From NCBI GenBank assembly GCA_014526335.1, contig JACTAT010000285.1, forward strand, positions 163,297 to 227,296: a DNA stretch of 64,000 nucleotides, read 5' to 3'. Below, piece by piece: positions 1,606 through 57,882 of this stretch (position 1 is the first letter of the stretch; every line of letters starts with the position of its first letter). The notes under the pieces were generated by a model, which made no database searches, had not been told where the DNA came from, and saw only the letters and a list, made by a program, of their open reading frames with translations. The translations under genes and the position numbers were made by a program. The stretch comes from Chrysaora quinquecirrha (lineage: Eukaryota; Cnidaria; Scyphozoa; Semaeostomeae; Pelagiidae).

Positions 1606-3196
1606 TTATACTTTTGAAGTAGTAGGTCTTATAAGTGGGGGCTGAATATTACAAAGTGCAGCACAAGTATGCACTATATCATCAACATAAGGCAACAAAG
1701 TTAATTGCAAAATGTTCTTTAAAATTCTAAATGTCTTTAATCTGTTGATTGCCCTTTCAACATGAATGCGAAGGTTTGCAACTTCTTTTGTTGTTTTGCA
1801 CTCATTTGCAGTCATCTGTGACTTGGCAGGAGCGCCAGGAGGGATACTCAGAGTGCAATAATGGTGCAGAAGATCTTCTTTGATCTGAAAACCCCGATCC
1901 ACCATGATTTCATCTCCATACTCCAGCTTATTGTAAAATGAACTGTTCTGGCAAATATACTGATCAGAAGTTCTTCCACCATAACAGTCTGATAAGAACA
2001 TAATGTAGCCAGTTGGCGATATGGCAATCAAGAACTTCACCGTATTGTGCTTTTTGTATTCCGACCATGTTGCTGCCTGCACCTCTAATGTCTTTGGTCT
2101 CTCTATAAAAGTCTCAGAGCAGTCGATAATGCACCTGGTCTTACAATGGCTCTTCTTAAACATCTCTGGAAGGTTTGATGTAATCACATCGCGAGGGAGC
2201 CAGGTTAAAAGTGCATCTGCAAAGGTACTGCTGAGAAATGTTATCCAGGTGGAAAAGATTGTTGAGCATGTACCAACTGAAATGTTGAATCTTTGGGCCA
2301 AGTCCTGTGTTAAGAGTTCTAATCGAAGTCTCATTAAGACCAGTAGAAACTGGTCCCTTCCGGCAACCTTCATTGTTTTTGTTGGAAGTTTACCTATTAT
2401 CTTGTGGGACAAAACATGTTTTTCCCCTCTCCAATATTTTAATCCAGCAGTATACGGCTTCAACAGCTCAAATATAGCATTGAAAACTTTGACTGACTGA
2501 AATCCTGTATAAAATTTCATATCAGCATCTTTCTTGATATATTTCACTGAAAATGGCTTTTGTCTTGAATTTGTGACACTGTTGGCTTTGATTTCTTCTT
2601 TCATCTTTGTGACCCGAGCCTGGAGATGCTTCTTTTCTTCAGAAAGTTTTTTTCAACTTCTCTCTGTAAGAGTTTATCAAATCATTCTTATCCTTGCATG
2701 TTCCACATGCCTCTGAATTTAATGACAAATATGCATGATCATGGCCAAAAGCGTGGTCCATTCTACCTTCATCATCTTTTCCAGATTCTCCACCTTTGGC
2801 TGCTTCAGCAGCAGGAGTCAACTCATGTCTCACAAGCTGACAACGCACAGACTTAGCCGGCTTTTCATAGCCAAGTTTCAAAGTAGGAACAGGATTCTCT
2901 GCTGTTGGTTTCCCACCTTCAAAATGTTCTGAGCACACCATATCACTTGAACCTGGCTGCCATGGAGTGTGCTTTTTTGTCACTCGATTCAGCGCTCTAA
3001 TCCATGTCTTCCGAAGCTCCCCAAAACGCAACTTACTTGGAAATGAATGCAGTTGAAAAGGCGGATCGCATGGACAATTCTCATTCATCATTCCAGCATG
3101 CACCATACATTCCTTCTTTCTCCATTTCTTCAATTTGTACTTGTTATTTGTACAAGATACAACTGCACACGTTCCGTTGACCATATTTGAACCCAA
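1606..3196 (-). pseudogene. THAP - DDE_Tnp_4 transposase (ISL2EU-type), one frameshift
   Basis: Two minus-strand frames abut: 3196-2639 and 2604-1606. The first starts with a THAP zinc finger (CAVVSC near the N-terminus, later SDMVCSEHF), the DNA-binding end of many animal transposases. The second has a helix-turn-helix segment (LTQDLAQRFNISVGTC) and a DDE_Tnp_4 core: CIIDCSETFIERP (first D), FLSDCYGGRTSDQ (second D region), GDEIMVDRGF and RIHVERAINRLK (terminal E). A short coiled-coil linker joins them across a one-base frame change at a run of seven A/T near 2648-2654. The product would cut and paste the element's ends. The family call is good; the decay is slight and could be a homopolymer error. 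Confidence 0.82.
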
Positions 3197-3690
3197 ACAA
3201 AATTTCGCAGAAGGAATCTTCCTGCAAAACTGATATTACGTAGCGTAGCTTGCCAGAGCAAAGTACTTGTTTGAAGTTTTTAAGAAAACTGTTCCCTTGA
3301 TAACAGACTACACAGGATAATATATCGAATGAATAAACTTGAAGAAATACGAGTATATCTGCAAGGTTTAATCAGCATCACAACTTCTCTCTCACAAATC
3401 ACCAAAACACGTTGTCGCGAAGGGAAGCTGTGAAAAATCTTTCACCCCATAACTCGTCCCAGACTCCCTTGCGAAAGCGAGGTCGTGGATAATGAAAAGG
3501 TGTATTGTTCGAATAATGCATTATCCATCTTTGTGCATTAAACAACTAATATCATAAACTTAATGTGTCACGGCTTTTTTTATCATATAACCTATTTTTT
3601 TAATTTTTATATTTATAATCTTTTTATATTCGAGAAATATTTAATTTTATAAGCATTCGGTATTTCATACAGCCACTACTCACTTACACG
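3197..3690. other. non-coding stretch between the ISL2EU element and the virus-like cluster
   Basis: No convincing reading frame. 3540-3660 is very AT-rich. It probably contains the transposon terminus and the left boundary of the virus-like region, but I see no diagnostic repeat. Confidence 0.4.
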
Positions 3691-5273: not shown

Positions 5274-5502
5274 TCACAAAAATTCTCTAGTCTGCCAAGT
5301 AGCAATATGTAATAATCTTCTAAGATTCTCAGTGCTTATTCCACCTTCCGGAGTTATAAATTGCTTTAACTTAGTCTCTTTTCTATTCTCCTCCTGAGAC
5401 TCTAAATTTTTAATAGCCTCTAAAAGTTTCTTTACTTTTTAAACTCTTTACTTCACTACTTAAATTCTTATTCTTAGCCACAGCTTTAATTTGTTCGAAT
5501 GT
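5274..5502 (-). pseudogene. coiled-coil protein fragment cut by the hammerhead repeat array
   Basis: Reading leftwards from 5502, one frame (KNKNLSSEVKSLKSKE) gives way after one base shift to another (KKLLEAIKNLES, then TPEGGISTENLRRLLHIATW), stopping at TGA 5276-5274. The composition fits a coiled coil followed by a small folded tail. Its upstream part ends exactly where the tandem repeat begins, and the gene on the other side (6109-6825) runs into the repeat from the opposite edge. The array was therefore probably inserted into one minus-strand gene. Not recognised. Confidence 0.45.
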
Positions 5503-5580
5503 TCGAAGGTCACTGGTTCGAATCCCAGTCAAGGCAATTATAACAATTGTGGTAGCCCACTTGTGATGAATAAATATCCT

Positions 5581-5644
5581 GTGTCAGCATATGTTCAGTT
5601 CACTATATTTTCTATGCTCTGATGAAGGCTTTAAGCCGAAACAC
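5581..5644 (+). ncRNA. hammerhead ribozyme, copy 1 (stem III open)
   Basis: All core parts are present. Stem III is GTGT 5581-5584 with ACAC 5641-5644. The cleavage triplet GTC puts the predicted cut after C5585. Stem I is AGCATA 5586-5591 pairing perfectly with TATGCT 5613-5618 over a 21-nt loop. The core is CTGATGA 5619-5625. Stem II is GGCT 5627-5630 with AGCC 5634-5637. GAA at 5638-5640 completes the core, and A5641 closes stem III against T5584. One deviation is visible: an extra A (5626) between the core and stem II. Stem III is short (4-5 bp), so folding may be favoured in tandem or dimeric transcripts. Activity is inferred, not shown. Confidence 0.8.
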
Positions 5645-5721
5645 AAATAAACACCTTGGCTTTGGAGGAGACATGTGGCTGGAAGGACCTCGAGTTAGGC
5701 TGGCTACTTCATTGCACTGTT

Positions 5722-5777
5722 TAGTGCATTGGAGTAGTCACCTGGCTTGTTGTCCAGAAGGTCACTAGTTCGAATCC
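5722..5777 (+). promoter_or_regulatory. tRNA-like pol III internal promoter (box A 5722-5732, box B 5767-5777), unit 1 to 2
   Basis: TAGTGCATTGG resembles box A (TRGCNNAGYGG, two mismatches) and AGTTCGAATCC matches box B (GGTTCGANTCC, one mismatch). Their starts are 45 bp apart, a normal tRNA spacing. The box B stem (ACTGG/CCAGT in the other units) is self-complementary like a T-arm. It marks a tRNA-derived SINE head upstream of the ribozyme. Confidence 0.6.
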
Positions 5778-5832
5778 CAGTCAAGGCAATTATAACAATT
5801 GTGGTAGCCTACTTGTGATGAATAAATATCCT

Positions 5833-5896
5833 GTGTCAGCATATGTTCAGTTCACTATATGTTCTATGCTCTGATGAAGGCTTTAAGCCGAAACAC
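5833..5896 (+). ncRNA. hammerhead ribozyme, copy 2
   Basis: Identical in all pairing and core positions to the copy 252 bp upstream; the only difference is one base in loop I (TATATG against TATATT). Predicted cleavage follows C5837. Two cuts in one transcript would release a 252-nt monomer (5586-5837). The third unit begins GTGTCAGCATA at 6085 but is truncated inside loop I, so only two complete ribozymes exist here. Confidence 0.8.
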
Positions 5897-5973
5897 AAAT
5901 AAACACCTTGGCTGTGGAGGAGACCTGTGGCTTGAAGGACCTCGAGTTAGGCTGGCTACTTCATTGCACTGTT

Positions 5974-6029
5974 TAGTGCATTGGAGTAGTCACCTGGCTT
6001 GTTGTCCAGAAGGTCACTGGTTCGAATCC
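5974..6029 (+). promoter_or_regulatory. tRNA-like pol III internal promoter, unit 2 to 3
   Basis: Same arrangement 252 bp further on, with a perfect box B core GGTTCGAATCC at 6019-6029 and box A TAGTGCATTGG at 5974-5984. A further isolated box B lies at 5515-5525 at the array's left edge. Confidence 0.6.
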
Positions 6030-6108
6030 CAGTCAAGGCAATTATAACAATTGTGGTAGCCCACTTGTGATGAATAAATATCCTGTGTCAGCATATGTTC
6101 AGTTCACT

Positions 6109-6825
6109 TTTTTTTAAAAAAAATTGTATTATTTCAATCTTTTTTTTACACTTTATATAATTTTGTACTTCAATTTCTAACAAACTTCGTTTGCATCTAG
6201 AGCAAAATAATGTCATTTGCTCATCATCTACACAATAAACATCTTCAAATAATTTCTGTAAAAAGTCTTTCATACTTTCTAAGCAGTCTTTAAAACTTTT
6301 TTCATCTTCTCCTTTGTTTCGTATTCTATCTATTTCAGTCTGAATGCTATTCTTAAAACCTTCTTCAAAAAGTTGTTCTTCTCCATATCTCTTCAAAAAC
6401 TCTTTACAAAGCCATTCATTGATACCGCCGCTATTTTCAATAGCATTTTTAACGTCTGGATTTGACATTTCTTCACCCTTCAATTGCAAAATAAGCTGGA
6501 AATTTTTTTCTGAATTGAAATCTAGAAAAATATTTCTTACTTTCTCTTCAATAAACTCCATCAGCTTTTTTCCTACCATGTCACTAACTCCTTGCATAAT
6601 ATTCGGCACCTTACTCCATTGCGGTTCTAGTCTCAAAAGAGTACATTGTTCTTGTAATAATTGTAGTTTTTTACATTCCATAATTGTCAACTTTTCCAAT
6701 TTATCATAACGACAACAGCTCACAACACAACCAAGCTCTGCCAACTTAAGATGCAATAAATGTTGAATATAAATATTAAATATTAAATATCTGATCAGTT
6801 GGGTCACTAGTTGCAATATCTTCAA
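6109..6825 (-). pseudogene. hypothetical protein with a CxxC pair, C-terminus displaced by the repeat array
   Basis: Frame read from about 6825 to the repeat edge. The body is helical and charged (LKGEEMSNPDVKNAIENS, EEQLFEEGFKNSIQTEIDR), ending with FCSRCKRSLLEIEV, which could bind a metal with a partner cysteine. Its last residues are encoded by T8A8 sequence at the array edge, so the natural C-terminus is lost or lies beyond the array. It overlaps the preceding gene's stop (6776), which suggests tightly packed or fused genes. Not recognised; a structural or replication protein of the virus-like element is possible but unsupported. Confidence 0.45.
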
Positions 6826-13480: not shown

Positions 13481-13773
13481 TTATTGAAAGCTGTTTGGTG
13501 TAGATTGCAAGCTATCAGGTCCCAAAACTTGGCTTTGCCAGTAGTTTGCAGCTTGTTGTGTCTGAGATGCTTGTTGTTGGTATCCTGACAATTGATTATT
13601 AAGATATCCAAGCTCAATATCCAAGAAGACCTTTTCGATTGCATTTCTTGCCACAGCCTTTTTCATTCTGTCTAGCCTCCTGAGACGACTTGCAATACTC
13701 ATTCCATAATAGTGGTCTTCATCCAATTCTGTCTCTGGTTTGTTGGACCGTTGCTCTTGTCTGTTGTCCGTTG
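13481..13773 (-). pseudogene. Harbinger Myb/SANT-type accessory protein, N-terminus lost
   Basis: Reading leftwards from the breakpoint at 13773, a frame stays open to 13481: DEDHYYGMSIASRLRRLDRMKKAVARNAIEKVFLDIEL, then a Gln-rich tail. The DEDHYF.S.A..LRRL..K..A...IEK..F pattern is the C-terminal helix of MADF/Myb-like proteins that partner Harbinger transposase for nuclear import and DNA binding. The DNA-binding half would have lain to the right and is replaced by array 1. Confidence 0.65.
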
Positions 13774-14710
13774 TAATTTAAAATGATGTCAAGTTTTTTA
13801 AGGATGTTGAATATTTTCCACAAACTGCTGCTCTCAATGCTTCAAAACAGACTGTTGTGTTTGACATTCCTGCTCAGCCTGATCATATGATTGACTTGAA
13901 TCATTCTTATTTCGTCTTGACTCTTACCATCAAAAAAGTAGATGGAAGTGATATTGGAAAAACCACTGCAGAATTTGCTGGAGTAATAAAAAACATTGGT
14001 CAATCGATGTGAAAGCAGATAGAGTTGGTTTTGAATGACACTCCCGTCACAGAAGCAAATGGAATGTATGCCTATCAATCTTACTTGGAAACAATTCTGA
14101 CGTTTGATGAAACCACAGCTAAAAACTATTTGAAAATGACAAACTGGGTCAGTGATACGATTAGCAAAGAAAATGTTGGCTTTCCAAGAACAGCATCATA
14201 AAAAATGAAGGGTTTAAATGCAAGATCCGCACCATTTGATGATAGTGAAAAGGTTAAAGTGTTGACAAAGCCTCATGTTAACATTTGCAATCAAAGCAAA
14301 TACTTGCTGCCTGGTGTTTGTCTTCAATGGCGATTGAGTCCAAACAGCGATTTGTTTTGTTTGATTAACCAGGATTCGAAGTGAAACTGTTGCTAAGGAT
14401 TGAAAGAAGTCTAACGCAATTTACCCAGTCTGTCAACCTGGCGAGCTATTTGATCAATACCACAACAACTAGCTGGGTTCAAGAAAATGTGTTCAACGGA
14501 AAGATTCCGAACAGATTGTTCTGATTGTTCAATTTGACGCTGAAAGGAAACTGCACAGATGAGCAACACTTGCTTAAAAGTGAGGGTAATCTGAGAATAA
14601 GTATAAATTTTTCACACACTGTTGACAGTTTGATGAACATTGTAATCTTGGGTGAATTTGATAGAGTCATTCAAATCGATAGTCATAAAAACGTCATTCC
14701 AGATTGGTAA
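13774..14710 (+). pseudogene. Polinton capsid-type protein (F54H12.2-like), unit 1, N-terminus cut
   Basis: The frame reads DVKFFKDVEYFPQTAALNA at its start and later DHMIDLNHSYFVLTL, QIELVLNDTPVTEANGMYAY and YLETILTFDETTAKNYLK, a beta-rich pattern I associate with Polinton F54H12.2-like structural proteins. It is interrupted by TGA (after GQSM), TAA (after RTAS) and a frameshift near 14375. It resumes in another frame to GEFDRVIQIDSHKNVIPDW (TAA 14708-14710), which matches that family's C-terminus. The first ~20 residues are absent because the breakpoint lies at 13774. Whether it is major or minor capsid cannot be told by eye. Confidence 0.7.
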
Positions 14711-14728
14711 TTATGGATGAAATAAAAA

Positions 14729-15971
14729 TTAATTGTGTGAGAGTGTGCTTCGATGTGCATCTGCTTCCCTTTCCATCAAACATTTCACATAATCCTCATG
14801 CGTTATTTGCTTCTTCACATACTTTTCAATCCCTTTTTCTCTTTTGATAGTATTTCCATCATCGATTTGTCAGCTGTACATCTTTGATCTCAATTAAGCA
14901 AATTCTTTCATCTCAACGCCACGGAGCTCGTATTTCATTTTCCCAATAACTTTCTTGTTTCTTTGTTTCTTGTAGAGTAATTTGGATGTTCTTTATCGTA
15001 ATTGCTGAAATCAAATCCATCTTTTGATCTTTTAATACTCAGTCGACTTGATCCTTAGGCATTGGTATTTCATAGATAAAACTGTCAGTTTCCATGTAGC
15101 ATAGCTCAGCATTTGGAAGGCTTTATTTTGCAAAGTTGTAATGGAAATCATACATCAATGTTATGCTAATTTCCAATATGCTGAAACCAACATACATTAG
15201 TTTGTTGAGTTTAATTTTTCCAATCTTTTTCTCAGCTAGAAATGTGTCTTCATTGATTCTAATTACTCCATAAATGTTTGGATTTCGTAATCCATCTTCT
15301 CAAGACTATTCCACCAGTACAGATTTCAAAACACCGATGATTTGTTACGTTTTCCATCGTCTTCCCAAACACTGAATTGTTCATCAACTTGAACAGATCT
15401 TTTACAAAGTTGCTTCTTGCATGTGTTGTTTTCTGGGTATTAAAATCAATATATTCTTTCAACCATAAACTTTGCTTGAATTCGATGATTTCATAAGCTT
15501 TTGTTAGCTTCGAATCCAATTCCAAACACTGCTTCAACTTTCCTTCATGGATGAGGTTTTCTTCTTTGCTGATTAGATTTGGCATTAGCCTCGGTGTTGA
15601 CTTAAACTTTTTTCAATTGAAGTTTTTATGAGTGTTCTTTTGATGTTCTGATAGCATGTCTTCTTGGACTGGCAATCTCTGTGGCGCCAATGGTAGATCT
15701 GCATGATGATCGTGTAACTTTGCTGGATATTCCAAATCTACTTTGGGAATATAACCAACGTGTTCATTCGATCTTGTCAGCAAAGCGTGGATGTCTGTGT
15801 TTCTGATTTCGTCTTGTGTTAACTGCTTGAAACCACCATCGGGCATTGGTTGTGACATTGCCAATTCATAGAGATTATTTGGATCTAGATACATCAGCGT
15901 GTTGCTTTTTGTTAATTTGGCATGACGTTTAAATGCTATCAAGACACCACAACGAATGTCATCTTCAATCA
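14729..15971 (-). pseudogene. protein-primed DNA polymerase B C-terminal half, unit 1
   Basis: Fragments in several frames give the order of a Polinton PolB palm. Upstream is LMYLDPNNLYELAMSQPMPD (motif A region), then FKLMNNSVFGKTMENVTN (motif B region), then METDSFIYEIPMPKDQVD (motif C, usually DTDS) and a C-terminal KMKYELRGVEMKEFA. Stops and shifts break it at 15613-15585 and 15259 and further downstream. The N-terminal half is missing: homology with the longer copies ends at 15971, where recombinase sequence begins. It would replicate the element's DNA from a protein primer; it is dead here. Confidence 0.82.
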
Positions 15972-18495
15972 AATTACTTACTTCTGGAGATGGGCCACGC
16001 CATTAAGAGCCTCAAAAAGAGCCATCAGTAGAACAATGGAGAATTTTATGTGAAGCAACGGCTGCTAGAATTATAATATTCAATAAAGGAAGAGCAAACG
16101 AAGCCACAAAGTTGACGATCAGAGATTTCAATGAAAGACCCAAATGGGAAAATACCATAATTGAAGAGGTAAAAGACTCTTTGCAGCCCATTGAGCAAGA
16201 GCTTTGTGAAAGGTAAGTAATTTGCTTTGAAACAGTTTTCATCTTTACAGCATAAAGCAACCATAACTAATCAAAGCACTGAAAAATATTTCAGATTCAA
16301 TAAAATTTAACATTCTTTTGTTTTTGCCACAGTTGTCTCTAACCCTCGGATTTCATGGGTATTACTTTGTTTCTATTTTGGCAAGTTATATAAGGATGAT
16401 GAAGTTGCTTGAGCTTACCTGAGAGAAGAGTTTGACATCTTAAGGAATTAAAGATTCAGATAGAATGTTACATGCCAGAAATATTTATTCACTGATCAAT
16501 TATATACTTGATATACTTGATATCAGTTTAAGAATGACGTAATGTATTGTGTGAAGTATATTTAATAATGACAGCAATTGTTTTTGTCTCTTTGCAGACT
16601 AGATTTAGATTACGTGAAAGGAAAAAGAGGCAACAAATGCCCGATACTGCTGACAAAGGATACACGTCAAGGAAAAGCGTAACGATGTTGGAGTAAATGA
16701 GAACAATAAATATATCTTTGCTGCACCTGCTCAAGGCTCATTAAATTACTTGCGTGGCAATGATTGTATTTCTGCTGTGACAAAACGATGCCCTGGCTTA
16801 AAGAACCCAGAAGGGATAAGAAGTACCAAATTGAGAAAATTCGTTACCACTGTTTCTCAGATAGCAGACTTGAAAGAAAATGAGCTTGGTTGGCTGGCAA
16901 AGCACATGGGACATGACATAACAGTACATCGACAGTACTATCAACTTCATGAGTCTACTTTGGAGTTGGCAAAAGTCAGCAAGCTACTAATGGCTGTTGA
17001 TAATGGGAAGGCGAGTCATTTTGCTGGAAAGAAGCTAGACGATATTGAGAAAATTCGTTACCACCGTTTCTCAGATAGCAGACTTGAAAGAAAATGAGCT
17101 TGGTTGGCTGGCAAAGCACATGGGACATGACATAACAGTACATCGACAGTACTATCAACTTCATGAGTCTACTTTGGAGTTGGCAAAAGTCAGCAAGCTA
17201 CTAATGGCTGTTGATAATGGGAAGGGGAGTCATTTTGCTGGAAAGAAGCTAGACGATATAACTGTAGAAGGTTTGTAATGCTGGTTTTTCACCTTGAATT
17301 TATTGATCATGTGAAGGTTTGTTTACTTGAGATATATACTGCATTTCTCCACAAAAAGTTGTGCTATTTTAAAGTTACTCATCTAGTTAGTTGGTTACTA
17401 TTTGGTTGGGTAGTAATTCCGCAATAAGGTCTGCAAAAGAAACCCCTCTGCCTCCCATTAAACCATATTGATTTCACTTTAGGTTTCAGTGAGTTTCCAA
17501 ACTTAGAACAAAATGAAACAAATCAACATTTTTTGCAGGAAGAGAGGGGGCAAACAATTGAAGCTTTCATCCTAGTTTAAAGCTGTGTTGTTTTCTACAG
17601 GGAACCAACAGTCTCTGTGACTTTGGCAACATTAGATTTTGCATTGCATTGTTTGTTTTAAGTTTTAACTCTGGAATTAACTGAATGGGTTGATTTACCA
17701 TCTACAGATTTGCCTGAAGAGATCGAAGAGGAAGACAACGGTGCTAACGTCAGTGGCCAAAATAGAGAAATTCAACAAACTGGTTAGACATTTTCAGACA
17801 GATGATAATTTTTTATTCAACTTAAATCTTTTCCTTTTTACACGGCAAAATTGCTTGCTAGAGTAATACTTTACTGATTATTACCCTAAGCATTTTAGTG
17901 TACGCTTCATTTAGCACTTGTCCCTCATTTTCCAGTCATGGTCCAGCTTTCAAGACCATACAAAAATACGCTTTTTGCTGTTGCCCAAAAGAAAACAACT
18001 TTGATGTCTCTTTGTATGTTTGGTTGCTATATTGTCCCCATTTTTTAAAGAGTGCTGCAGGCATGTTCTATTCTTGTGTAATTATCGTTTTTACTTAATT
18101 GAAACCATTAGTTGAAGTGCTTGTAGTACCAAACTGGCTTCAGCTTTCTTCCTTTCAAAGTAACAAATACCCTGTTAAAGTCTGCTGAGACATCAGAAAG
18201 ATTTGAATTATGCGCCGTTTTGTCTTTTGCATTAACATTAACATGAATTTATTTTTCCAACAGGCACAGTGAAAGAAATTGCCAGAAAAAGAACTAAAAG
18301 CAAATTCAAAGGCGTTGGGAGGTTAAGACTGTCCTTGATTCCTTTGAGCCTTTATTAAAGCGCCAGAAATTGCCTGGTAAAGAGGCTATAGAGGATTGCA
18401 AACAAAACAACCCAGAGGCCCTCTCAGAGAGGACATGGCTTAATATAAAGTACTATTGTAAGCAGCACATCAATAAACTGGAGCTAACATTTTAA
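15972..18495 (+). pseudogene. spliced tyrosine-recombinase gene fragment, unit 1
   Basis: Four exon-like blocks with consensus splice sites: about 15992-16212 (ends AG|GTAAGT), 16598-17270, 17708-17782, and 18264-18495. The core reads YVKGKRGNKCPILLTKDTRQ, then after a frameshift IFAAPAQGSLNYLRGND, STKLRKFVTTVSQ and WLAKHMGHDITVHRQYYQLH. The last supplies the HxxR-like/LGH and the Tyr nucleophile block of tyrosine recombinases. The N-terminal part with the first catalytic Arg is missing. Exon 4 encodes a Trp/Cys-rich tail and has one lost A here. Such recombinase-like genes are dispersed in fish and invertebrates, and a Crypton-like origin is plausible. Confidence 0.65.
16831..17258 (+). repeat. 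214-bp tandem duplication inside recombinase exon 2
   Basis: TTGAGAAAATTCGTTACCAC begins at 16831 and again at 17045, and the copies run side by side to about 17258. This duplicates the MGHDITVHRQYY block. It is absent from the units at 49.9 and 56.0 kb, and accounts for the 6266- versus ~6050-bp unit length. Confidence 0.85.
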
Positions 18496-18548
18496 CTTGT
18501 TGACATGAGAAACAAAGTGATATTTTTTTGTATTGCATGTAACATTAA

Positions 18549-18864
18549 GGCCTAGTTTAGACAGCGCATTATGGGCGCGGCGAATTAAATTCAGCTTACA
18601 TGTCAAATGATTCGCTGTTAGAGTGCTTTAAACTACATGATGGATTCAGACAGCGAATTTACTTAAGAGCGCATTAAATAAAAAGATATAATTCGCTTAT
18701 AATTCACTTGGAGCAGCGCATTATGAGTGCATTTAATAATTCAAGTCCCCTCAAAAAATGGTTGGTTTAAACAGCGCATTATGAGCGAATGAAATTGACA
18801 CTTAGACAGATTTTAGGCAATAGTTTAATTCGCTGCGCCTATAATGCACTCTCTAAACTAGGCC
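18549..18864. mobile_element. 316-bp MITE, Harbinger type (TSD TAA), copy 1
   Basis: Terminal inverted repeats of about 40 bp start GGCCTAGTTTAGACAGCGCA on the left and mirror it on the right (ending CTCTAAACTAGGCC), flanked by TAA on both sides (18546-18548, 18865-18867). Inside, AGCGCATTATGAGTGC / AGCGCATTATGAGCGA subrepeats recur. There is no coding capacity. The TSD and palindromic GGCC ends suit PIF/Harbinger cross-mobilisation. It sits just after the recombinase stop, so it was part of the unit before amplification. Confidence 0.82.
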
Positions 18865-18984
18865 TAAGTTTTGAATAAAGAACAAGTTATTTTTAGTGAT
18901 TTTAAATAGTGCAAAAATTAAACACAACTTTAAAATTGCCCATTGAGGTATTTCATGCTTTGTCATTTGGTGCAACTCAATCAA

Positions 18985-19215
18985 AAGCTTCAAACTTGAA
19001 ACTTTCGGGTCATTGTCCCCACAAATCCAGTGGTTTTTTTTCTACATAAGAACTCACACCTCCCCACACCTCTGTGGGGACACATGATTCTTATGAAATT
19101 AATGTCAATATGACCTATTTGCAGCTGTTTCCAGACTTTGACGTTGTGGGGTCAGAGTGAGTGTCCCCACAACCCAAACAGTCCCCACAAGGCTGGTGTG
19201 CATTTACATGTTTGT
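18985..19215. repeat. GTCCCCAC / GTGGGGAC motif cluster before the pVI-like gene
   Basis: At least six GTCCCCAC, CTCCCCAC or GTGGGG motifs occur within ~200 bp in both orientations, including a hairpin CCCCACACCTCTGTGGGG (19064-19081). They stand out from AT-rich surroundings and recur in the other units (51.99-52.2, 58.03-58.24 kb). They could be protein-binding sites of the original Polinton control region; no function is shown. Confidence 0.5.
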
Positions 19216-19351
19216 CCCAACGTTGGTGTGACATAAACGCTTCATTCCGTTGAAAATTAACAAGCAGGTTGTAAATTTTAGGAATTTGAAAATTTGTTCT
19301 ATTATCCATTGTTATACAATGATATCAACAAATTTACTATAAAAGTCTACA

Positions 19352-19973
19352 ATGAGTTGGGAAAAGAGGTACAATTCTACAAAACAAAGACAACATTCTT
19401 GCTACACTTTAGAAGGAAACATGTATGATTTTCCAATTTACAAATCAACTCCATATTTTTACACCTATCAGCGTGGAAGAGGAGTAGGTGGTATTTTCAG
19501 GAAAGCTGGATCTATTTTTAAAAGAGCTGTTAAAGAAGCAAGAAGTAAAAGCTGCCGAGAAAATTTTGAAACCTGTTTTACAAGAAGAATCAGAGAAGGC
19601 AGTTAATCAGATATTAGCTGGTGAGAATGTTGGAAAAGTTGCAAAAGATACTACCAAATCTTCTATGAGAGGAATTAAAAGAAAAGCTACTCAAGAAATT
19701 GTTGATGTTGTAAAGAAGACGGCAAAGAAATCTTCTGCTGGTAAGAAATTGTCTGTTGGTAAGAAATCGGTTGCTGGTAAGAAATCGTCTGCTGGTAAGA
19801 AATCAACTGCTGGTAACAAATCAAGGGGTCATCCTAAAAGATCTATAAAAGAAAGCACCATGTGGGGGATATTCATACCTACGCAGACATTGAAGAAAAG
19901 ACAAGCTAAGAAAGCTAAGCAACGTGATTTGAGAAAAACTTTGTTGAAGAAACTGTTGAAGAAGAAATTGTAA
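19352..19973 (+). pseudogene. pVI-like minor structural protein with Lys-rich repeats, unit 1
   Basis: ATG 19352 opens MSWEKRYNSTKQRQHSCYTL and reaches YFYTYQRGRGVGGIFRKAG, the Gly-rich amphipathic N-terminal pattern seen in Polinton/adenoviral pVI- or pX-like proteins. A one-base shift near 19530 moves coding into a second frame (EVKAAEKILKPVLQEE, then ATQEIVDVVKKTAKK). Five tandem KKS-x-AGKK repeats follow, and a basic tail ends KKLLKKKL at TAA 19973. The C-terminus resembles a nuclear-localising, DNA-binding tail. It lies 2 bp upstream of the capsid-type gene's ATG in the same direction, as in a late-gene cassette. Confidence 0.6.
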
Positions 19974-19975
19974 CA

Positions 19976-20976
19976 ATGAGCGTAAAGCCAGAATAAACTG
20001 AATGTCCTAGTGAGAGTTTGGATTTATTCTGCTCACCAGTAATTTAAAATGATGTCAAGTTTTTTAAGGATGTTGAATATTTTCCACAAACTGCTGCTCT
20101 CAATGCTTCAAAACAGACTGTTGTGTTTGACATTCCTGCTCAGCCTGATCATATGATTGACTTGAATCATTCTTATTTCGTCTTGACTCTTGCCATCAAA
20201 AAAGTAGATGGAAGTGATATTGGAAAAACCACTGCAGAATTTGCTGGAGTAATAAATAACATTGGTCAATCGATGTGAAAGCAGATAGAGTTGGTTTTGA
20301 ATGACACTCCCGTCACAGAAGCAAATGGAATGTATGCCTATCAATCTTACTTGGAAACAATTCTGACGTTTGATGAAACCACAGCTAAAAACTATTTGAA
20401 AATGACAAACTGGGTCAGTGATACGATTAACAAAGAAAATGTTGGCTTTCCAAGAACAGCATCATAAAAAATGAAGGGTTTAAATGCAAGATCCGCACCA
20501 TTTGATGATAGTGAAAAGGTTAAAGTGTTGACAAAGCCTCATGTTAACATTTGCAATCAAAGCAAATACTTGCTGCCTGGTGTTTGTCTTCAATGGCGAT
20601 TGAGTCCAAACAGCGATTTGTTTTGTTTGATTAACCAGGTTTCGAAGTGAAACTGTTGCTAAGGATTGAAAGAAGGCTAACGCAATTTACCCAGTCTGTC
20701 AACCTGGCGAGCTATTTGATCAATATCACAACAACTAGCTGGGTTCAAGACAATGTGTTCAAAGGAAAGATTCCTAACAGATTGTTCTGATTGTTCAATT
20801 TGACGCTGAAAGGAAACTGAACAGATGAGCCACACTTGCTTAAAAGTGAGGGTAATCTGAGAATAAGTATAAATTTTGCACACGCTGTTGACAGTTTGAT
20901 GAATATTGTAATCTTGGGTGAATTTGATAGAGTCATTCAAATCGATAGTCATAAAAACGTCATTCCAGATTGGTAA
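19976..20976 (+). pseudogene. Polinton capsid-type protein, unit 2 (complete length)
   Basis: Starts at ATG 19976 (MSVKPE, then a stop, then SLDLFCSPV), so the N-terminus missing from unit 1 is visible here but already broken by TAA codons. The stops after GQSM and RTAS and the frame change near 20640 are the same as in unit 1. It carries the AQPDH and GSDIG variants shared with unit 1 and the 58998 copy, and lacks the HPDH/GDVG variants of the 46.9- and 52.9-kb copies. Confidence 0.7.
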
Positions 20977-20994
20977 TTATGGATGATATAAAAA

Positions 20995-22590
20995 TTAATT
21001 GTGTGACAGTGTGCTTCGATGTGCATCTGCTTCCCTTTCCATCAAACATTTCACATAATCCTCATGCGTTATTTGCTTCTTCACATACTTTTCAATTCCT
21101 TTCTCTCTTTTGATAGTATTTCCATCATCGATTTGTCAGCTGTACATCTTTGATCTCAATTAAGCAAATTCTTTCATCTCAACGCCACAGAGCTCGTATT
21201 TCATTTTCCCAATAACTTTCTTGTTTCTTTGTTTCTTGTAGAGTAATTTGGATGTTCTTTATCGTAATTGCTGAAATCAAATCCATCTTTGTGATCTTTT
21301 AATACTCAGTCGACTTGATCCTTAGGCATTGGTATTTCATAGATAAAATTGTCAGTTTCCATGTAGCATAGCTCAGCATTTGGAAGGCTTTATTTTCCAA
21401 AGTTGTAATGGAAATCATACATCAATGTTATGCTAATTTCCAATATGCTGAAACTAACATACATTAGTTTGTTGAGTTTAATTTTTCCAATCTTTTTCTC
21501 AGCTAGAAATGTGTCTTCATTCATTCTAATTACTCCATAAATGTTTGGATTTCGTAATCCATCTTCTCAAGACTATCCCACCAGTACAGATTTCAAAACA
21601 CCGATGATTTGTTACGTTTTCCATCGTCTTCCCAAACACTGAATTGTTCATCAACTTGAACAGATCTTTTACAAAGTTGCTTCTTGCATGTGTTCTTTTC
21701 TGGGTATTAGAATCAATATATTCTTTCAACCATAAACTATGCTTGAATTCGATGATTTCATAAGCTTTTGTTAGCTTCGAATCCAATTCCAAACACTGCT
21801 TCAAATTTCCTTCATGGATGAGGTTTTCTTCTTTGCTGATTAGATTTGGCATTAGCCTCGGTGTTGACTTAAACTTTTTTCAATTGAAGTTTTTATGAGT
21901 TTTCTTTTGATGTTCTGATAGCATGTCTTCTTGGACTGGCCATCTTTGTGGCGCCAATGGTAGATCTGCATGATGATCGTGTAACTTTGCTGGATATTCC
22001 AAATCTACTTTGGGAATATAACCAACATGTTCATTCGATCTTGTCAGCAAAGCGTGGATGTCTGTGTTTCTGATTTCAGCTTGTGTTAACTGCTTGAAAC
22101 CACCATAGGGCATTGGTTGTGACATTGCCAATTCATAGATATTATTTGGATCTAGATACATCAGCGTGTTGTTTTTTGTTAATTTGGCATGACGTTTAAA
22201 TGCTATCAAGACACCACAACGAATGTCATCTTCAATCATAAGTAGAATGTCCTTCTTTTCTTTGGATAGCAATTCCAGCTTCAAACTAGTCATTTTCAGC
22301 ATCGCATTCCAGGCCAGCAAAGGAGCAGTTAGATAATCGTAGAATTCCAGACTCTGTGCTCTGAACGATTGGAATATATCAGACAACAGCAACACATCTG
22401 TTTTCAAGTATAGTTCATGATAGTGTTGAAAAGTCTGACAGTTGAAGAATTGTCAAACCTGTTGAGAATGTTCATAATCTTCATCACTGATGTAAAAATC
22501 GCCAAGTTTGTTGTAAAATGATTCTTTCGGTGGTAGACATAATTCTTCCATTTTCTCTGTACTATTTGTCCAATCGTAGGGATAAACACC
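20995..22590 (-). pseudogene. DNA polymerase B, unit 2, longer copy without the recombinase insertion
   Basis: Beyond the point where unit 1 switches to recombinase (the base matching 15971), this copy continues into more N-terminal PolB sequence: LLMIEDDIRCGVL, FYDYLTAPLLAWNAMLKMT and ELYLKTDVLLLSDIFQSFR, a typical exonuclease-to-palm junction of Polinton PolB. A shift near 22404 leads to TNSTEKMEELCLPPKESF. It ends abruptly at 22590 next to a THAP exon. Small variants (GTGACAGTG, TTCAATTCC) pair it with the copy at 60017. Confidence 0.8.
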
Positions 22591-46400: not shown

Positions 46401-46794
46401 AAAGGCCACGCTGTGTCTGCCAGGCAAGAGGGGCTACGATATAAAGCGCAGCCTAGGAATGATAATCACAATGAACCTAAAAGTAGGATTATTTGTTCAT
46501 AGCAAAAACTTTTCTCATTATGACGTTTTTCGTTTTAGATGAATACAGCATATGGATATTGTCCGATAATGGTAGGCATGGGTAGTCCCGGATGTGGCAA
46601 GTCAAAAGCTGGTGCCGCAGCCATTGCATTAACGGGTTCTTACCCTAAAATGATGTTCTCACCGTTTATCGACAAACGGACCAAAGTCATGTCCACTTTC
46701 ACGACGCAAGGACTCTTTTTAGACGCACCAATTCTCCCAAAGAGTTTGCTCTGTCATCAAAAAGATATTTTGATGGAGTGTGTGATGCCGAAGA
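43492..46794 (+). CDS. four-exon gene with a P-loop (Walker A) motif, cut by array 2
   Basis: Exons 43492-43625, 44490-44911, 45797-45990 and 46539-~46794 have consensus splice sites and phases that join without a stop, giving about 335 residues before the break. Landmarks are MEERKGDELSNFAMEIIHPI (start), TIFFPWRAIDDPSLFKKFI, GLNSANGQNILIFNEEQAF, FVEVVEEFSRKQLHVTLEEN and, in exon 4, the nucleotide-binding loop PIMVGMGSPGCGKSKAGAAA. I do not recognise the family. A P-loop so late in the chain suggests an ATPase domain that continued to the right and is lost where the pVI-like fragment begins. The exons are clearly richer in G+C than the introns. It is the best candidate here for a host gene or a recently active element gene. 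Confidence 0.65.
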
Positions 46795-46898
46795 TATTCA
46801 TACCTACGCAGACGTTGAAGAAAAGACAAGCTAAGAAAGCTAAGCAATGTGATTTGAGAAAAACTTTGTTGAAGAAACTGTTGAAGAAGAAATTGTAA
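46790..46898 (+). pseudogene. pVI-like C-terminal fragment fused to the P-loop exon
   Basis: From the breakpoint the frame IFIPTQTLKKRQAKKAKQCD to KKLLKKKL is the last ~36 residues of the pVI-like protein and happens to be in frame with exon 4. The chimera ends at TAA 46896-46898. R-to-C is a private change. Confidence 0.75.
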
Positions 46899-46900
46899 CA

Positions 46901-47901
46901 ATGAGCGTAAAGCCAGAATAAACTGAATGTCCTAGTGAGAGTTTGGATTTATTCTGCTCACCAGTAATTTAAAATGATGTCAAGTTTTTTAAGGATGTTG
47001 AATATTTTCCACAAACTGCTGCTCTCAATGCTTCAAAACAGACTGTTGTGTTTGACATTCCTGCTCACCCCGATCATATGATTGACTTGAATCATTCTTA
47101 TTTCGTCTTGACTCTTGCCATTAAAAAAGTAGATGGAAGTGATGTTGGAAAAACCACTGCAGAATTTGCTGGATTAATAAATAACATTGGTCAATCGATG
47201 TGAAAGCAGATAGAGTTGGTTTTGAATGACACTCCCGTCACAGAAGCAAATGGAATGTATGCCTATCAATCTTACTTGGAAACAATTCTGACGTTTGATG
47301 AAACCACAGCTAAAAACTATTTGAAAATGACAAACTGGGTCAGTGATACGATTAGCAAAGAAAATGTTGGCTTTCCAAGAACAGCATCATAAAAAATGAA
47401 GGGTTTAAATGCAAGATCCGCACCATTTGATGATAGTGAAAAGGTTAAAGTGTTGACAAAGCCTCATGTTAACATTTGCAATGAAAGCAAATACTTGCTG
47501 CCTGGTGTTTGTCTTCAATGGCGATTGAGTCCAAACAGTGATGTGTTTTGTTTGATTAACCAGGTTTCGAAGTGAAACTGTTGCTAAGGATTGAAAGAAG
47601 GCTAACGCAATTTACCCAGTCTGTCAACCTGGCGAGCTATTTGATCAATACCACAACAACTAGCTGGGTTCAAGACAATGTGCTCAACGGAAAGATTCCG
47701 AACAGATTGTTCTGATTGTTCAATTTGATGCTGAAAGGAAACTGCACAGATGAGCAACACTTGCTTAAAAGTGAGGGTAATCTGAGAATAAGTATAAATT
47801 TTGCACATGCTGTTGACAGTTTGATGAACATTGTAATCTTGGGTGAATTTGATAGAGTCATTCAAATCGATAGTCATAAAAACGTCATTCCAGATTGGTA
47901 A
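46901..47901 (+). pseudogene. Polinton capsid-type protein, array 2 unit A
   Basis: Full-length copy from ATG 46901. It carries HPDH and GDVGKT variants and a Leu for Val before the shared TGA, all shared with unit B. The inherited stops and frame change are present. Confidence 0.7.
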
Positions 47902-47919
47902 TTATGGATGATATAAAAA

Positions 47920-49163
47920 TTAATTGTGTGAGAGTGTGCTTCGATGTGCATCTGCTTCCCTTTCCATCAAACATTTCACATAATCCTCATGCGTTATTTG
48001 CTTCTTCACATACTTTTCAATCCCTTTTTCTCTTTTGATAGTATTTCCATCATCGATTTGTCAGCTGTACATCTTTGATCTCAATTAAGCAAATTCTTTC
48101 ATCTCAACGCCACGGAGCTCGTATTTCATTTTTCCAATAACTTTCTTGTTTCTTTGTTTCTTGTAGAGTAATTTGGATGTTCTTTATCGTAATTGCTGAA
48201 ATCAAATCCATCTTTGTGATCTTTTAATACTCAGTCGACTTGATCCTTAGGCATTGGTATTTCATAGATAAAACTGTCAGTTTCCATGTAGCATAGCTCA
48301 GCATTTGGAAGGCTTTATTTTGCAAAGTTGTAATGGAAATCATACATCAATGTTATGCTAATTTCCAATATGCTGAAACCAACATACATTAGTTTGTTGA
48401 GTTTAATTTTTGCAATCTTTTTCTCAGCTAGAAATGTGTCTTCATTGATTCTAATTACTCCATAAATGTTTGGATTTTGTAATCCATCTTCTCAAGACTA
48501 TCCCACCAGTACAGATTTCAAAACACCGAAGATTTGTTACGTTTTCCATCGTCTTCCCAAACACTGAATTGTTCATCAACTTGAACAGATCTTTTACAAA
48601 GTTGCTTCTTGCATGTGTTGTTTGCTGGGTATTAAAATCAATATATTCTTTCAACCATAAACTTTGCTTGAATTTGATGATTTCATAAGCTTTTGTTAGC
48701 TTCGAATCCAATTCCAAACACTGCTTCAACTTTCCTTCATGGATGAGGTTTTCTTCTTTGCTGATTAGATTTGGCATTAGCCTCGGTGTTGACTTAAACT
48801 TTTTTCAATTGAAGTTTTTATGAGTGTTCTTTTGATGTTCTGATAGCATGTCTTCTTGGACTGGCAATCTTTGTGGCGCCAATGGTAGATCTGCATGATG
48901 ATTGTGTAACTTTGCTGGATATTCCAAATCTACTTTGGGAATATAACCAACATGTTCATTCGATCTTGTCAGCAAAGCGTGGATGTCTGTGTTTCTGATT
49001 TCGTCTTTTGTTAACTGCTTGAAACCACCATAGGGCATTGGTTGTGACATTGCCAATTCATAGAGATTATTTAGATCTAGATACATCAGCGTGTTGTTTT
49101 TTGTTAATTTGGCATGACGTTTAAATGCTATCAAGATACCACAACGAATGTCATCTTCAATCA
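47920..49163 (-). pseudogene. DNA polymerase B C-terminal half, unit A
   Basis: Same truncated extent as unit 1, ending at the recombinase junction (49163). Private features include IIKFKQ for IIEFKQ, NTQQTT for NTQKTT and RCGIL for RCGVL. TNLRCFEIC is shared with unit B where array 1 has TNHRCFEIC. Confidence 0.78.
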
Positions 49164-51471
49164 AATTACTTACTTCTGGAGATGGGCCACGCCATTAAGA
49201 GCCTCAAAAAGAGCCATCAGTAGAACAATGGAGAATTTTATGTGAAGCAACGGCTGCTAGAATTATAATATTCAATAAAGGAAGAGCAAACAAAGCCACA
49301 AAGTTGACGATCAGAGATTTCAATGAAAGACCCAAATGGGAAAATACCATAATTGAAGAGGTAAAAGACTCTTTGCAGCCCATTGAGCAAGAGCTTTGTG
49401 AAAGGTAAGTAATTTGCTTTGAAACAGTTTTCATCTTTACAGCATAAAGCAACCATAACTAATCAAAGCACTGAAAATATTTCAGATTCAATAAAATTTA
49501 ACATTCTTTTGTTTTTGCCACAGTTGTCTCTTACCCTCGGATTTCATGGGTATTACTTTGTTTCTATTTTGGCAAGTTATATAAGGATGATGAAGTTGCT
49601 TGAGCTTACCTGAGAGAAGAGTTTGACATCTTAAGGAATTAAAGATTCAGATAGAATGTTACATGCCAGAAATATTTATTCACTGATCAATTATATACTT
49701 GATATACTTGATATCAGTTTAAGAATGACGTAATGTATTGTGTGAAGTATATTTAATAATGACAGCAATTGTTTTTGTCTCTTTGCAGACTAGATTTAGA
49801 TTACGTGAAAGGAAAAAGAGGCAACAAATGCCCGATACTGCTGACAAAGGATACACGTCAAGGAAAAGCGTAACGATGTTGGAGTAAATGAGAACAATAA
49901 ATATATCTTTGCTGCACCTGCTCAAGGCTCATTAAATTACTTGCGTGGCAATGATTGTATTTCTGCTGTGACAAAACGATGCCCTGGCTTAAAGAACCCA
50001 GAAGGGATAAGAAGTACAAAATTGAGAAAATTCGTTACCACCGTTTCTCAGATAGCAGACGTGAAAGAAAATGAGCTTGGTTGGCTGGCAAAGCACATGG
50101 GACATGACATAACAGTACATCGACAGTACTATCAACTTCATGAGTCTACTTTGGAGTTGGCAAAAGTCAGCAAGCTACTAATGGCTGTTGATAATGGGAA
50201 GGCAAGTCATTTTGCTGGAAAGAAGCTAGACGATATAACTGTAGAAGGTTTGTAATGCTGGTTTTTCACCTTGAATTTATTGATCATGTGAAGGTTTGTT
50301 TACTTGAGATATATACTGCATTTCTCCACAAAAATTTGTGCTATTTTAAAGTTACTCATCTAGTTAGTTGGTTACTATTTGGTTGGGTAGTAATTCCGCA
50401 ATAAGGTCTGCAAAAGAAACCCCTCTGCCTCCCATTAAACCATATTGATTTCACTTTAGGTTTCAGTGAGTTTCCAAACTTAGAACAAAATGAAACAAAT
50501 CAACATTTTTTGCAGGAAGAGAGGGGGCAAACAATTGAAGCTTTCATCCTAGTTTAAAGCTGTGTTGTTTTCTACAGGGAACCAACAGTCTCTGTGACTT
50601 TGGCAACATTAGATTTTGCATTGCATTGTTTGTTTAAGTTTTAACTCTGGAATTAACTGAATGGGTTGATTTACCATCTACAGATTTGCCTGAAGAGATC
50701 GAAGAGGAAGACAACGGTGCTAACGTCAGTGGCCAAAATAGAGAAATTCAACAAACTGGTTAGACTTTTTCAGACAGATGATAATTTTTTATTCAACTTA
50801 AATCTTTTCCTTTTTACACGGCAAAATTGCTTGCTAGAGTAATACTTTACTGATTATTACCCTAAGCATTTTAGTGTACGCTTCATTTAGCACTTGTCCC
50901 TCATTTTCCAGTCATGGTCCAGCTTTCAAGACCATACAAAAATACGTTTTTTGCTGTTGCCCAAAAGAAAACAACTTTGATGTCTCTTTGTATGTTTGGT
51001 TGCTATATTGTCCCCATTTTTTAAAGAGTGCTGCAGGCATGTTCTAATCTTGTGTAATTATCGTTTTTACTTAATTGAAACCATTAGTTGAAGTGCTTGT
51101 AGTACCAAACTGGCTTCAGCTTTCTTCCTTTCAAAGTAACAAATACCCTGTTAAAGTCTGCTGAGACATCAGAAAGATTTGAATTATGCGCCGTTTTGTC
51201 TTTTGCATTAACATTAACATGAATTTATTTTTTTAACAGGCACAGTGAAAGAAATTGCCAGAAAAAGAACTAAAAGCAAATTCAAAGGCGTTGGAAGGTT
51301 AAGGCTGTCCTTGATTCCTTTGAGCCTTTATTAAAGGGCCAGAAATTGCCTGGTAAAGAGGCTATAGAGGATTGCAAACAAAACAACCCAGAGGCCCTCT
51401 CAGAGAGGACATGGCTTAATATAAAGTACTATTGTAAGCAGCACATCAATAAACTGGAGATAACATTTTAA
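49164..51471 (+). pseudogene. tyrosine-recombinase gene fragment, unit A
   Basis: Same exon series without the 214-bp duplication. Exon 2 reads cleanly from YLRGNDCISAVTKRCPG through the MGHDITVHRQYY block to ITVEGL and the GTTTGT donor (about 50250). Q-I-A-D-V replaces Q-I-A-D-L of unit 1. Exon 4 has the one-A loss after RKRTKS, as in unit 1. Confidence 0.63.
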
Positions 51472-51524
51472 CTTGTCGACATGAGAAACAAAGTGATATT
51501 TTTTTGTATTGCATGTAACATTAA

Positions 51525-51840
51525 GGCCTAGTTTAGACAGCGCATTATGGGCGCGGCGAATTAAATTCAGCTTACATGTCAAATGATGCGCTGTTAGAGT
51601 GCTTTAAACTACATGATGGATTCAGACAGCGAATTTACTTAAGAGCGCATTAAATAAAAAGATATAATTCGCTTATAATTCACTTGAAGCAGCGCATTAT
51701 GAGTGCATTTAATAATTCAAGTCCCCTCAAAAAATGGTTGGTTTAAACAGCGCATTATGAGCGAATGAAATTGACACTTAGACAGATTTTAGGCAATAGT
51801 TTAATTCGCTGCGCCTATAATGCACTCTCTAAACTAGGCC
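51525..51840. mobile_element. 316-bp MITE, copy 2
   Basis: Same ends (GGCCTAG ... CTAGGCC) and TAA flanks (51522-51524, 51841-51843), same length. Differs by single substitutions (ATGCGCTG for ATTCGCTG, TTGAAGC for TTGGAGC). Confidence 0.82.
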
Positions 51841-52330
51841 TAAGTTTTGAATAAAGAACAAGTTATTTTTAGTGATTTTAAATAGTGCAAAAATTAAACA
51901 CAACTTTAAATTTGCCCATTGAGGTATTTCATGCTTTGTCATTTGGTGCAACTCAATCAAAAGCTTCAAACTTGAAAATTTCAGGTCATTGTCCCCACAA
52001 ATCCAGTGGTTTTTTTCTACATAAGAACTCACACCTCCCCACACCTCTGTGGGGACACATGATTCTTATGAAATTAATGTCAATATGACCTATTTGCAGC
52101 TGTTTCCAGACTTTGACGTTGTGGGGTCAGAGTGAGTGTCCCCACAACCCAAACAGTCCCCACAAGGCTGGTGTGCATTTACATGTTTGTCCCCGCAACG
52201 TTGGTGTGACATAAACGCTTCATTCCGTTGAAAATTAACAAGCAGGTTGTAAATTTTGTGGAATTTGAAAATTTGTTCTATTATCCATTGTTATACAATG
52301 ATATCAACAAATTTACTATAAAAGTCTACA

Positions 52331-52940
52331 ATGAGTTGGGAAAAGAGGTACAATTCTACAAAACAAAGACAACATTCTTGCTACACTTTAGAAGGAAACA
52401 TGTATGATTTTCCAATTTACAAATCAACTCCATATTTTTACACCTATCAGCGTGGAAGAGGAGTAGGTGGTATTTTCAGGAAAGCTGGATCTATTTTTAA
52501 AAGAGCTGTTAAAGAAGCAAGAAGTAAAAGCTGCCGAGAAAATTTTGAAACCTGTTTTACAAGAAGAAGCAGAGAAGGCAGTTAATCAGATATTAGCTGG
52601 TGAGAATGTTGGAAAAGTTGCAAAAGATACTACCAAATCTTCTATGAGAGGAATTAAAAGAACAGCTACTCAAGAAATTGTTGATGTCGTAAAGAAGACG
52701 GCAAAGAAATCTTCTGCTGGTAAGAAATTGTCTGTTGGTAAGAAATCGGTTGCTGGTAAGAAATCGTCTGCTGGTAAGAAATCAACTGCTGGTAACAAAT
52801 CAAGGGGTCATCCTAAAAGATCTATAAAAGAAAGCACCATGTGGGAGATTTTCATACCTACGCAGACGTTGAAGAAAAGACAAGCTAAGAAAGCTAAGCA
52901 ACGTGATTTCAGAAAAACTTTGTTGAAGAAGAAATTGTAA
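52331..52940 (+). pseudogene. pVI-like protein, unit B
   Basis: Starts at ATG 52331. Differs from the other full copies by a 12-bp loss in the basic tail (TLLKKKL instead of TLLKKLLKKKL) and by RTATQE for RKATQE. The inherited frame change near 52510 is present. Confidence 0.6.
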
Positions 52941-52942
52941 CA

Positions 52943-53944: not shown

Positions 53945-53962
53945 TTATGGATGATATAAAAA

Positions 53963-57513: not shown

Positions 57514-57566
57514 CTTGTTGACATGAGAAACAAAGTGATATTTTTTTGTATTGCATGTAACATTAA

Positions 57567-57882
57567 GGCCTAGTTTAGACAGCGCATTATGGGCCCGGCG
57601 AATTAAATTCAGCTTACATGTCAAATGATTCGCTGTTAGAGTGCTTTAAACTACATGATGGATTCAGACAGCGAATTTACTTAAGAGCGCATTAAATAAA
57701 AAGATATAAATCGCTTATAATTCACTTGAAGCAGCGCATTATGAGTGCATTTAATAATTCAAGTCCCCTCAAAAAATGGTTGGTTTAAACAGCGCATTAT
57801 GAGCGAATGAAATTGACACTTAGACAGATTTTAGGCAATAGTTTAATTCACTGTGCCTATAATGCACTCTCTAAACTAGGCC
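57567..57882. mobile_element. 316-bp MITE, copy 3
   Basis: TAA-flanked copy with the same termini. Private changes GGGCCCGGC and CACTGTGCC lie inside the otherwise paired TIRs. Confidence 0.82.

Follow-up and report, generated by a model that had tools for sequence, protein, structure and literature searches.

Dispersed through the genome of the scyphozoan Chrysaora quinquecirrha is a 252-bp repeat. Very probably it is a retrozyme-like non-LTR retroelement, non-coding and non-autonomous, that carries a predicted type III hammerhead ribozyme and spreads by target-primed reverse transcription. One copy of it lies in the window, the whole 64,000-nucleotide stretch of DNA analysed here, as a short tandem array (Table 1). 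The original prediction, which described the array as a retroelement with complete hammerheads, is supported by further genomic copies, target-site duplications, clusters of 3′ ends and 5′ inversions, while the parallels it named and the dependence of cleavage on dimers that it proposed are not supported.

The repeat unit, its predicted hammerhead and its fold

The array has a period of 252 bp, a copy number of 2.4 and a match of 97% (TRF). The periodicity had been called exact and it is, with a sequence that is itself nearly exact: six of the 252 positions distinguish copy 1 from copy 2, one of them a loop I site, and the hammerhead stems and core are identical. The unit has a GC content of 43% and contains no long ORF among those of at least 110 aa in the window; a single one of these 55 ORFs touches the array, at its edge and on the other strand (6088-6825). 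No LTR-like structure was seen in the insertion junctions of the two locus samples described below. Metazoan non-LTR retrozymes are defined by tandem units of roughly 170-400 bp that carry a hammerhead and lack both LTRs and ORFs, and the 252-bp unit has each of these properties.

The window holds two perfect matches to GGTTCGANNCC, each inside the array, and the corresponding site in the middle copy (5767-5777) has one substitution. Across 40 stretches, flanks included, 77 such motifs were found, with at least one in every stretch. An A box in the unit is a relaxed match only, and neither ARAGORN nor Rfam reported a tRNA.

Both complete units read 5′-TGTGT-C-AGCATA-(loop of 21)-TATGCT-CTGATGA-A-GGCT-TTA-AGCC-GAA-ACACA-3′, with stem III of 5 bp (TGTGT/ACACA), stem I of 6 bp (AGCATA/TATGCT) and stem II of 4 bp (GGCT/AGCC), GTC before stem I and GAAA after stem II. 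Every part that had been listed from the letters alone (stem III, GTC, the 6-bp stem I, CTGATGA, the 4-bp stem II and GAAA) is thus present in both. Because stems I and II each end in a hairpin loop and stem III is open, the predicted topology is type III, and the core has the corresponding CUGANGA, GAAA and NUH elements and three stems. A type I reading, or that of a Penelope-like minimal hammerhead, was rejected, no such arrangement occurring in the window. The third hammerhead is incomplete: its predicted cut would follow 6089 and the insertion terminates in loop I, the exact 3′ end being ambiguous as a gapped alignment continues through a T-run to circle position 26 (circle numbering, with position 1 the first nucleotide after the predicted cut). 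Oddities of the motif are the extra A after CTGATGA, the 21-nt loop I and the 3-nt loop II; loops I and II share no Watson-Crick word of 3 or more. The suggestion that cleavage might depend on dimers is not supported, such dependence being described for type I hammerheads with a weak closed helix III.

Table 1 Features of the array, in window coordinates
Feature	Position	Strand	Basis or detail
Tandem array, one probable retrozyme insertion	5505-6108	+	TRF, unit comparison, genome matches to the 604-bp query
B-box-like GGTTCGAATCC (Pol III type)	5515-5525	+	Exact GGTTCGANNCC match
B-box-like GGTTCGAATCC (Pol III type), third copy	6019-6029	+	Exact GGTTCGANNCC match
Predicted type III hammerhead, copy 1	5580-5645	+	Descriptor; RF00008 29.4 bits, sub-gathering; MFE of 5579-5647
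Copy 1 stem III	5580-5584/5641-5645	+	
Copy 1 C17	5585	+	Predicted cut directly after
Copy 1 stem I	5586-5591/5613-5618	+	Loop I 5592-5612
Copy 1 CTGATGA	5619-5625	+	Extra A 5626
Copy 1 stem II	5627-5630/5634-5637	+	GAA 5638-5640
Predicted type III hammerhead, copy 2	5832-5897	+	Predicted cut after 5837; descriptor; RF00008 29.4 bits
Third hammerhead, incomplete	6084-6108	+	Stem III 5′ strand, GTC, stem I 5′ strand, part of loop I
Cleavage-to-cleavage unit 1	5586-5837	+	Circle fold
Cleavage-to-cleavage 252-nt unit 2	5838-6089	+	Circle fold, body-shuffle control
Long imperfect hairpin, structured body	5906-6039 (copy 1 at 5654-5787)	+	Circle folds; 52/67 copies aligned

A strict Watson-Crick descriptor with arms of 6/4/5 matches the plus strand of the window twice and has no match in 370 Mb of first-order Markov sequence (one strand, window composition), which bears out the low chance that had been assigned to all paired arms arising together. 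Relaxed to 5/4/4, it matches once in the same 370 Mb; a looser G-U descriptor gives 4 matches per 40 Mb of Markov sequence and, on both strands of the window, these two copies only. No descriptor match for a minus-strand hammerhead was found in the window. The Rfam check that had been proposed for both copies gave a mixed outcome: RF00008 (Hammerhead_3) matches each in short searches (E of 4e-4 for copy 1 and 1.3e-4 for copy 2), at a score of 29.4 bits that lies below the gathering threshold of 48.5, and no match was reported when the whole window was scanned with that threshold or with E<=0.5. The proposed folding check was likewise divided. The 69-nt segments favour the motif, the MFE of 5579-5647 being the hammerhead fold and that of 5831-5899 retaining the three stems, while the 91-nt segments 5570-5660 and 5822-5912 fold otherwise; the energy z-score of the isolated 69-nt hammerhead is not unusual.

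Folded as a circle, the second cleavage-to-cleavage unit has an MFE of -92.7 kcal/mol (z -5.9) in which all three stems and all 15 hammerhead pairs form. The first reaches -81.4 kcal/mol (z -4.2) with none of stems I-III in the MFE, its hammerhead-constrained form lying 3.0 kcal/mol higher; none of 252 control stretches of 252 nt from elsewhere in the window (126 places, both strands) is as stable. All six differences between the two circles weaken pairs of circle 1, a pattern compatible with decay of copy 1 and not significant, as about two-thirds of sites are paired. Among 40 units, one per locus with two duplicated loci included, the median z is -4.6 (above -2 in seven), and the hammerhead strand is the more stable one in 39/40. 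The complete hammerhead is part of the circle MFE in 7 of 28 assessable units. Since 22 of 300 body-shuffled circles of the second unit still form the hammerhead, the body fold is statistically strong and its compatibility with the hammerhead is not.

The remainder of the window holds several other mobile or repetitive features. An element of about 6.05-6.27 kb lies head to tail at 13773-22590 and 46792-61524 (1.4 and 2.4 copies, 98-99% identity), with DNA_pol_B_2-like ORFs (viral/organellar-type DNA polymerase B) and a K/S-rich stretch encoded by an array of 18-bp repeats; we take it to be perhaps Polinton-like. On the minus strand at 1606-3235, two neighbouring ORFs carry THAP and DDE_Tnp_4 transposase parts, the larger having a best relative 91% identical; of the ten relatives with organism names among 120 listed, nine come from cnidarian genera and one from an amphioxus. 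A 214-bp tandem duplication (16830-17259, 99% match) overlaps an ORF without a Pfam match (16654-17097), and further domains include TRAF/MATH, HECT-like pieces and a CxC5-like protein.

Genomic copies and insertion junctions

In the 328 Mb of the genome (740 contigs), the 604-bp array query matches at least 59 places (best 40 of 392 candidates scored). The 24-nt core CTGATGA..GAAAC, allowing two mismatches, has 210 matches (96 + 114, tandem copies included) and its reversed control none, and the search for further copies that the original prediction had proposed as a test therefore came out in its favour. Pattern searches for relatives found none among phages and plasmids, and in a viral contig collection and other genome contigs they returned just one match each, in apparently coding phage-like DNA and in a bacterial contig, both of which look like chance.

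We recovered 52 hammerhead copies from 40/40 loci. The intact descriptor is satisfied by 39 copies in 29/40 loci, with full arms in 35, and 11/40 loci have no such copy. Stems and core diverge from the window unit in 60 of 2705 cells (2.2%), compared with 594 of 16045 (3.7%) elsewhere, a figure that omits eight positions at which the window unit often carries a minority base and becomes 963 of 16665 (5.8%) with them; the slower change in stems and core has a Fisher p of 5e-5, computed over non-independent cells. For covariation, 45 of the 52 copies were aligned, giving 40 distinct rows after omission of six identical repeats and of one copy (L037) with an insertion within the hammerhead core. 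In these rows 97.8% of hammerhead-pair cells are paired and 0/15 pairs are altered on both sides, the copies being too alike for covariation to be informative.

A first sample of insertions comprised the longest matches (293-1460 bp), 39 places with flanks plus the window, from which two loci (L019 and L025) sharing flanks with another locus were dropped to leave 38 independent loci. Their 5′ ends are scattered. Their 3′ ends fall between -23 and +29 around the predicted cut in 35/38 (p 8e-21 against a uniform distribution), with 16 at -15 to -7, 18 at +9 to +29 and one at -23. Target-site duplications of at least 8 bp flank 11/38, compared with 0.3 on average and at most 3 when flanks were re-paired among loci; most loci have no duplication of this length, and none was found for the window's own array. 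A 5′ inverted piece is present in 8/38, and in seven of these eight its outer end lies at -16 to -8 or +20 to +28, near the two groups of 3′ ends.

As this sample had been selected for length, a second was taken, consisting of the 30 exact core matches (71-641 bp) that come first when the contigs are read in order. One-third of these insertions (10/30) measure 214-264 bp, about one unit. The 3′ ends again lie between -23 and +29 in 22/30, duplications of at least 8 bp and up to 18 bp occur in 10/30 (permuted mean 0.27, maximum 3), and inversions occur in 7/30, with outer ends that are not clearly clustered. Pruning of four loci with shared or nearly shared flanks and of one with an N at the 5′ flank (L061) left 25, of which 19 have 3′ ends in the same interval. 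Six of the 25 were already in the first set; among the 19 new loci, seven carry a duplication of at least 8 bp. The family therefore shows the marks of retrotransposition, dispersed copies and, in part of the loci, target-site duplications.

Within the interval in which 3′ ends concentrate, the segment -5 to +6 is empty, both for the 35 first-sample ends in the interval (0/35) and for the second sample (0/30). It corresponds to the strands of stem III and stem I that flank the cut, and the adjoining unpaired linker and loop I are rich in ends. For the first sample, the chance of such a gap is 1e-4 for ends uniform over the interval and 0.004 when distinct positions are counted; two of the 35 ends lie at positions 28-29 in the 3′ strand of stem I, a place where the alignment boundary is not certain. 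The distribution of ends suggests that reverse transcription may favour starting points in RNA that the folded hammerhead leaves unpaired, a sequence preference of the enzyme being the alternative. The 3′ ends in loop I imply a template that was joined across the cut, whether circular or uncut.

The 5′ ends add a second signal. In the first sample, 5/38 lie within 3 nt of the cut (p 0.004), one of them (L026) an inversion joint, and in the second sample 4/19 non-inverted loci do (p 0.002), one being identical to a locus of the first set (L059, L017) and another a 71-bp fragment (L070). A broader interval of -16 to +19 holds 13/19 of the second-sample 5′ ends and shows no enrichment in the first set (6/38, p 0.46); the second-sample excess is partly one of ascertainment, as presence of the core was a condition of sampling and short insertions are more frequent there. 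One insertion of 501 bp (L066, from about 1318) consists of two nearly full monomers head to head, both ending at nucleotide 1, with a short spacer between the cDNAs and an enclosing A/T-rich target-site duplication of 17 bp, as if both target strands had primed a cDNA. Together with the other 5′ ends at the cut, it points to cut RNA as a template. Array length also varies between DNA duplicates of one insertion: two loci on one contig (L012 and L019) have identical flanks and arrays of 5.8 and 1.8 units.

The genome contains a second hammerhead family. The Rfam type I model (RF00163) matches at least four places, one of them over the cut-off (best 73 of 41646 candidates scored), and at the type I sites of four loci (L050-L053, about position 1500) CTGATGAGCTCC..GAGCG can be read directly. 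Three of the four contain GAAACGCGTC, with a sequence near to it in neighbouring copies of the fourth; B-box-like GGTTCGATTC lies close to the type I hammerhead in L050, L051 and L053, and inverted partial copies adjoin the element in L051-L053. None of the four loci holds a tandem array of this SINE-like element, and no similarity to the 252-bp unit was detectable (best E 2.1). What the two have in common is the genome and a hammerhead near a B-box-like sequence. The type I motifs appear to resemble the minimal type I hammerheads described for Penelope-like elements, which PMC7229834 mentions.

A proposed cycle and its rivals

For the retrozyme reading, the cleavage, the circles, the polymerase and the helper enzyme are steps that we infer. 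A genomic array would give rise to transcripts, perhaps through Pol III acting at the B box or through read-through, and the hammerhead would cleave every unit after GTC. RNAs of unit length, and circles or multimers that stay uncut, may be stabilised by the long hairpin. An autonomous non-LTR element (LINE or Penelope-like) would then act as helper, its reverse transcriptase copying the RNA at a nicked target and probably beginning mostly in unpaired RNA beside the cut. The insertions left behind would range from a fraction of a unit to several units, many with target-site duplications.

Target-site duplications and 5′ inversions are also seen in SINE and LINE insertions, and the observations could be read as a SINE-like element that Pol III transcribes and a LINE mobilises, with a hammerhead that is a relic or too weak and with 3′ ends clustered by the sequence recognition of the helper enzyme. 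A B-box motif in 40/40 stretches, an odd core with a sub-gathering RF00008 score and the avoidance of the exact cut by 3′ ends all suit this explanation, which we nonetheless consider unlikely: divergence is lower in stems and core than elsewhere, 39 intact motifs persist across 29/40 loci, some 5′ ends lie at nucleotide 1, and the one-unit size class makes up 10/30 of the second sample.

Two further explanations are far less probable. The type III hammerhead, the length of 252 nt and the strong self-pairing of the circle recall an integrated viroid-like RNA replicon (retroviroid-like), copied from RNA to RNA with genomic copies as by-products. Such a replicon is very improbable given that the other strand has no hammerhead descriptor match, that Rfam lists no other ribozyme family for 5400-6200 at E<=10, that the minus strand folds less well in 39/40 units and that the genomic copies are many and part of them bear target-site duplications. 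Least probable is an ordinary satellite amplified at the DNA level, its hammerhead due to chance. Head-to-tail arrays and the differing array lengths of the duplicated locus would be expected of it; insertions scattered over the genome, with duplicated target sites, inversions and clustered 3′ ends, would not, and the motif has a low chance rate (0 in 370 Mb of random sequence).

Beyond the retrozyme reading itself, we tentatively put forward a wider one, plausible though somewhat short of probable. An animal retrozyme family would run on a type III hammerhead, so that the type I order would not be needed for propagation, and the insertion ends would be a footprint of the RNA template: some cDNAs would stop at the predicted cleavage site, reflecting cut linear RNA, and others would cross the joint from loop I, reflecting circular or uncut RNA, with a preference for starts in RNA that the folded ribozyme leaves unpaired, on one or both target strands.

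Comparison with known hammerhead elements

Animal retrozymes are described as type I and plant retrozymes as type III (PMC7229834, PMC7761336, PMC4918200, PMC11722881), and the vast majority of eukaryotic repeat hammerheads as type I (PMC3088659), whose Discussion raises the possibility that propagation of repeats may need type I. No type III animal retrozyme was recognised among the titles and abstracts that the literature searches listed; elements of insects with type III hammerheads receive a passing mention in PMC7761336, which cites a previous survey and work in preparation. The closest relatives in organisation are the metazoan non-LTR retrozymes of Cervera and de la Pena (2020, PMC7229834), described as non-coding tandem repeats of about 170-400 nt with one hammerhead per unit, low GC, a strong fold, no LTR and target-site duplications of more than 4 bp; duplications of 15 bp are reported for Nematostella repeats (PMC4918200). 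Theirs are type I, whereas the 252-bp unit is type III by its predicted topology, with the body in the loop of stem III. The unit works like a non-LTR retrozyme and departs from one published descriptor of the metazoan group, the type I hammerhead.

Plant LTR retrozymes share the type III hammerhead and the non-autonomous character (PMC4918200, PMC7229834). They are described as having about 600-1000 bp, LTRs, PBS/PPT, 4-bp duplications and a GC content above 55% (PMC4918200, PMC7229834), unlike the Chrysaora element with its 252 bp, 43% GC and duplications of 8-18 bp where found, and that class was rejected on its LTRs, 4-bp duplications and length. A Penelope-like element, with an RT + GIY-YIG ORF, terminal repeats and a minimal type I hammerhead, was also rejected, the unit having neither a type I motif nor a long ORF.

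Sm-alpha and newt satellite 2 had been named as parallels, a comparison that fails on topology, both being type I in the literature and the 252-bp unit type III. Sm-alpha of Schistosoma is, like the present unit, a SINE-like repeat with tRNA-type sequence and a hammerhead, and differs in having a type I motif and a full tRNA in place of a B-box motif only (PMC8490949, PMC4918200). HDV-like agents and termite and dipteran genomes provide type III hammerheads in animals with a long helix I region; the passages of PMC7936874 on termites describe these motifs as isolated and describe no tandem retrozyme. That one genome holds about two hundred core copies of a dispersed type III family argues against a type I requirement, and the type I element of the same genome offers a comparison for it. 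From the set of insertions one can further read what the RNA template was and where reverse transcription began, a step that the retrozyme papers leave as a model.
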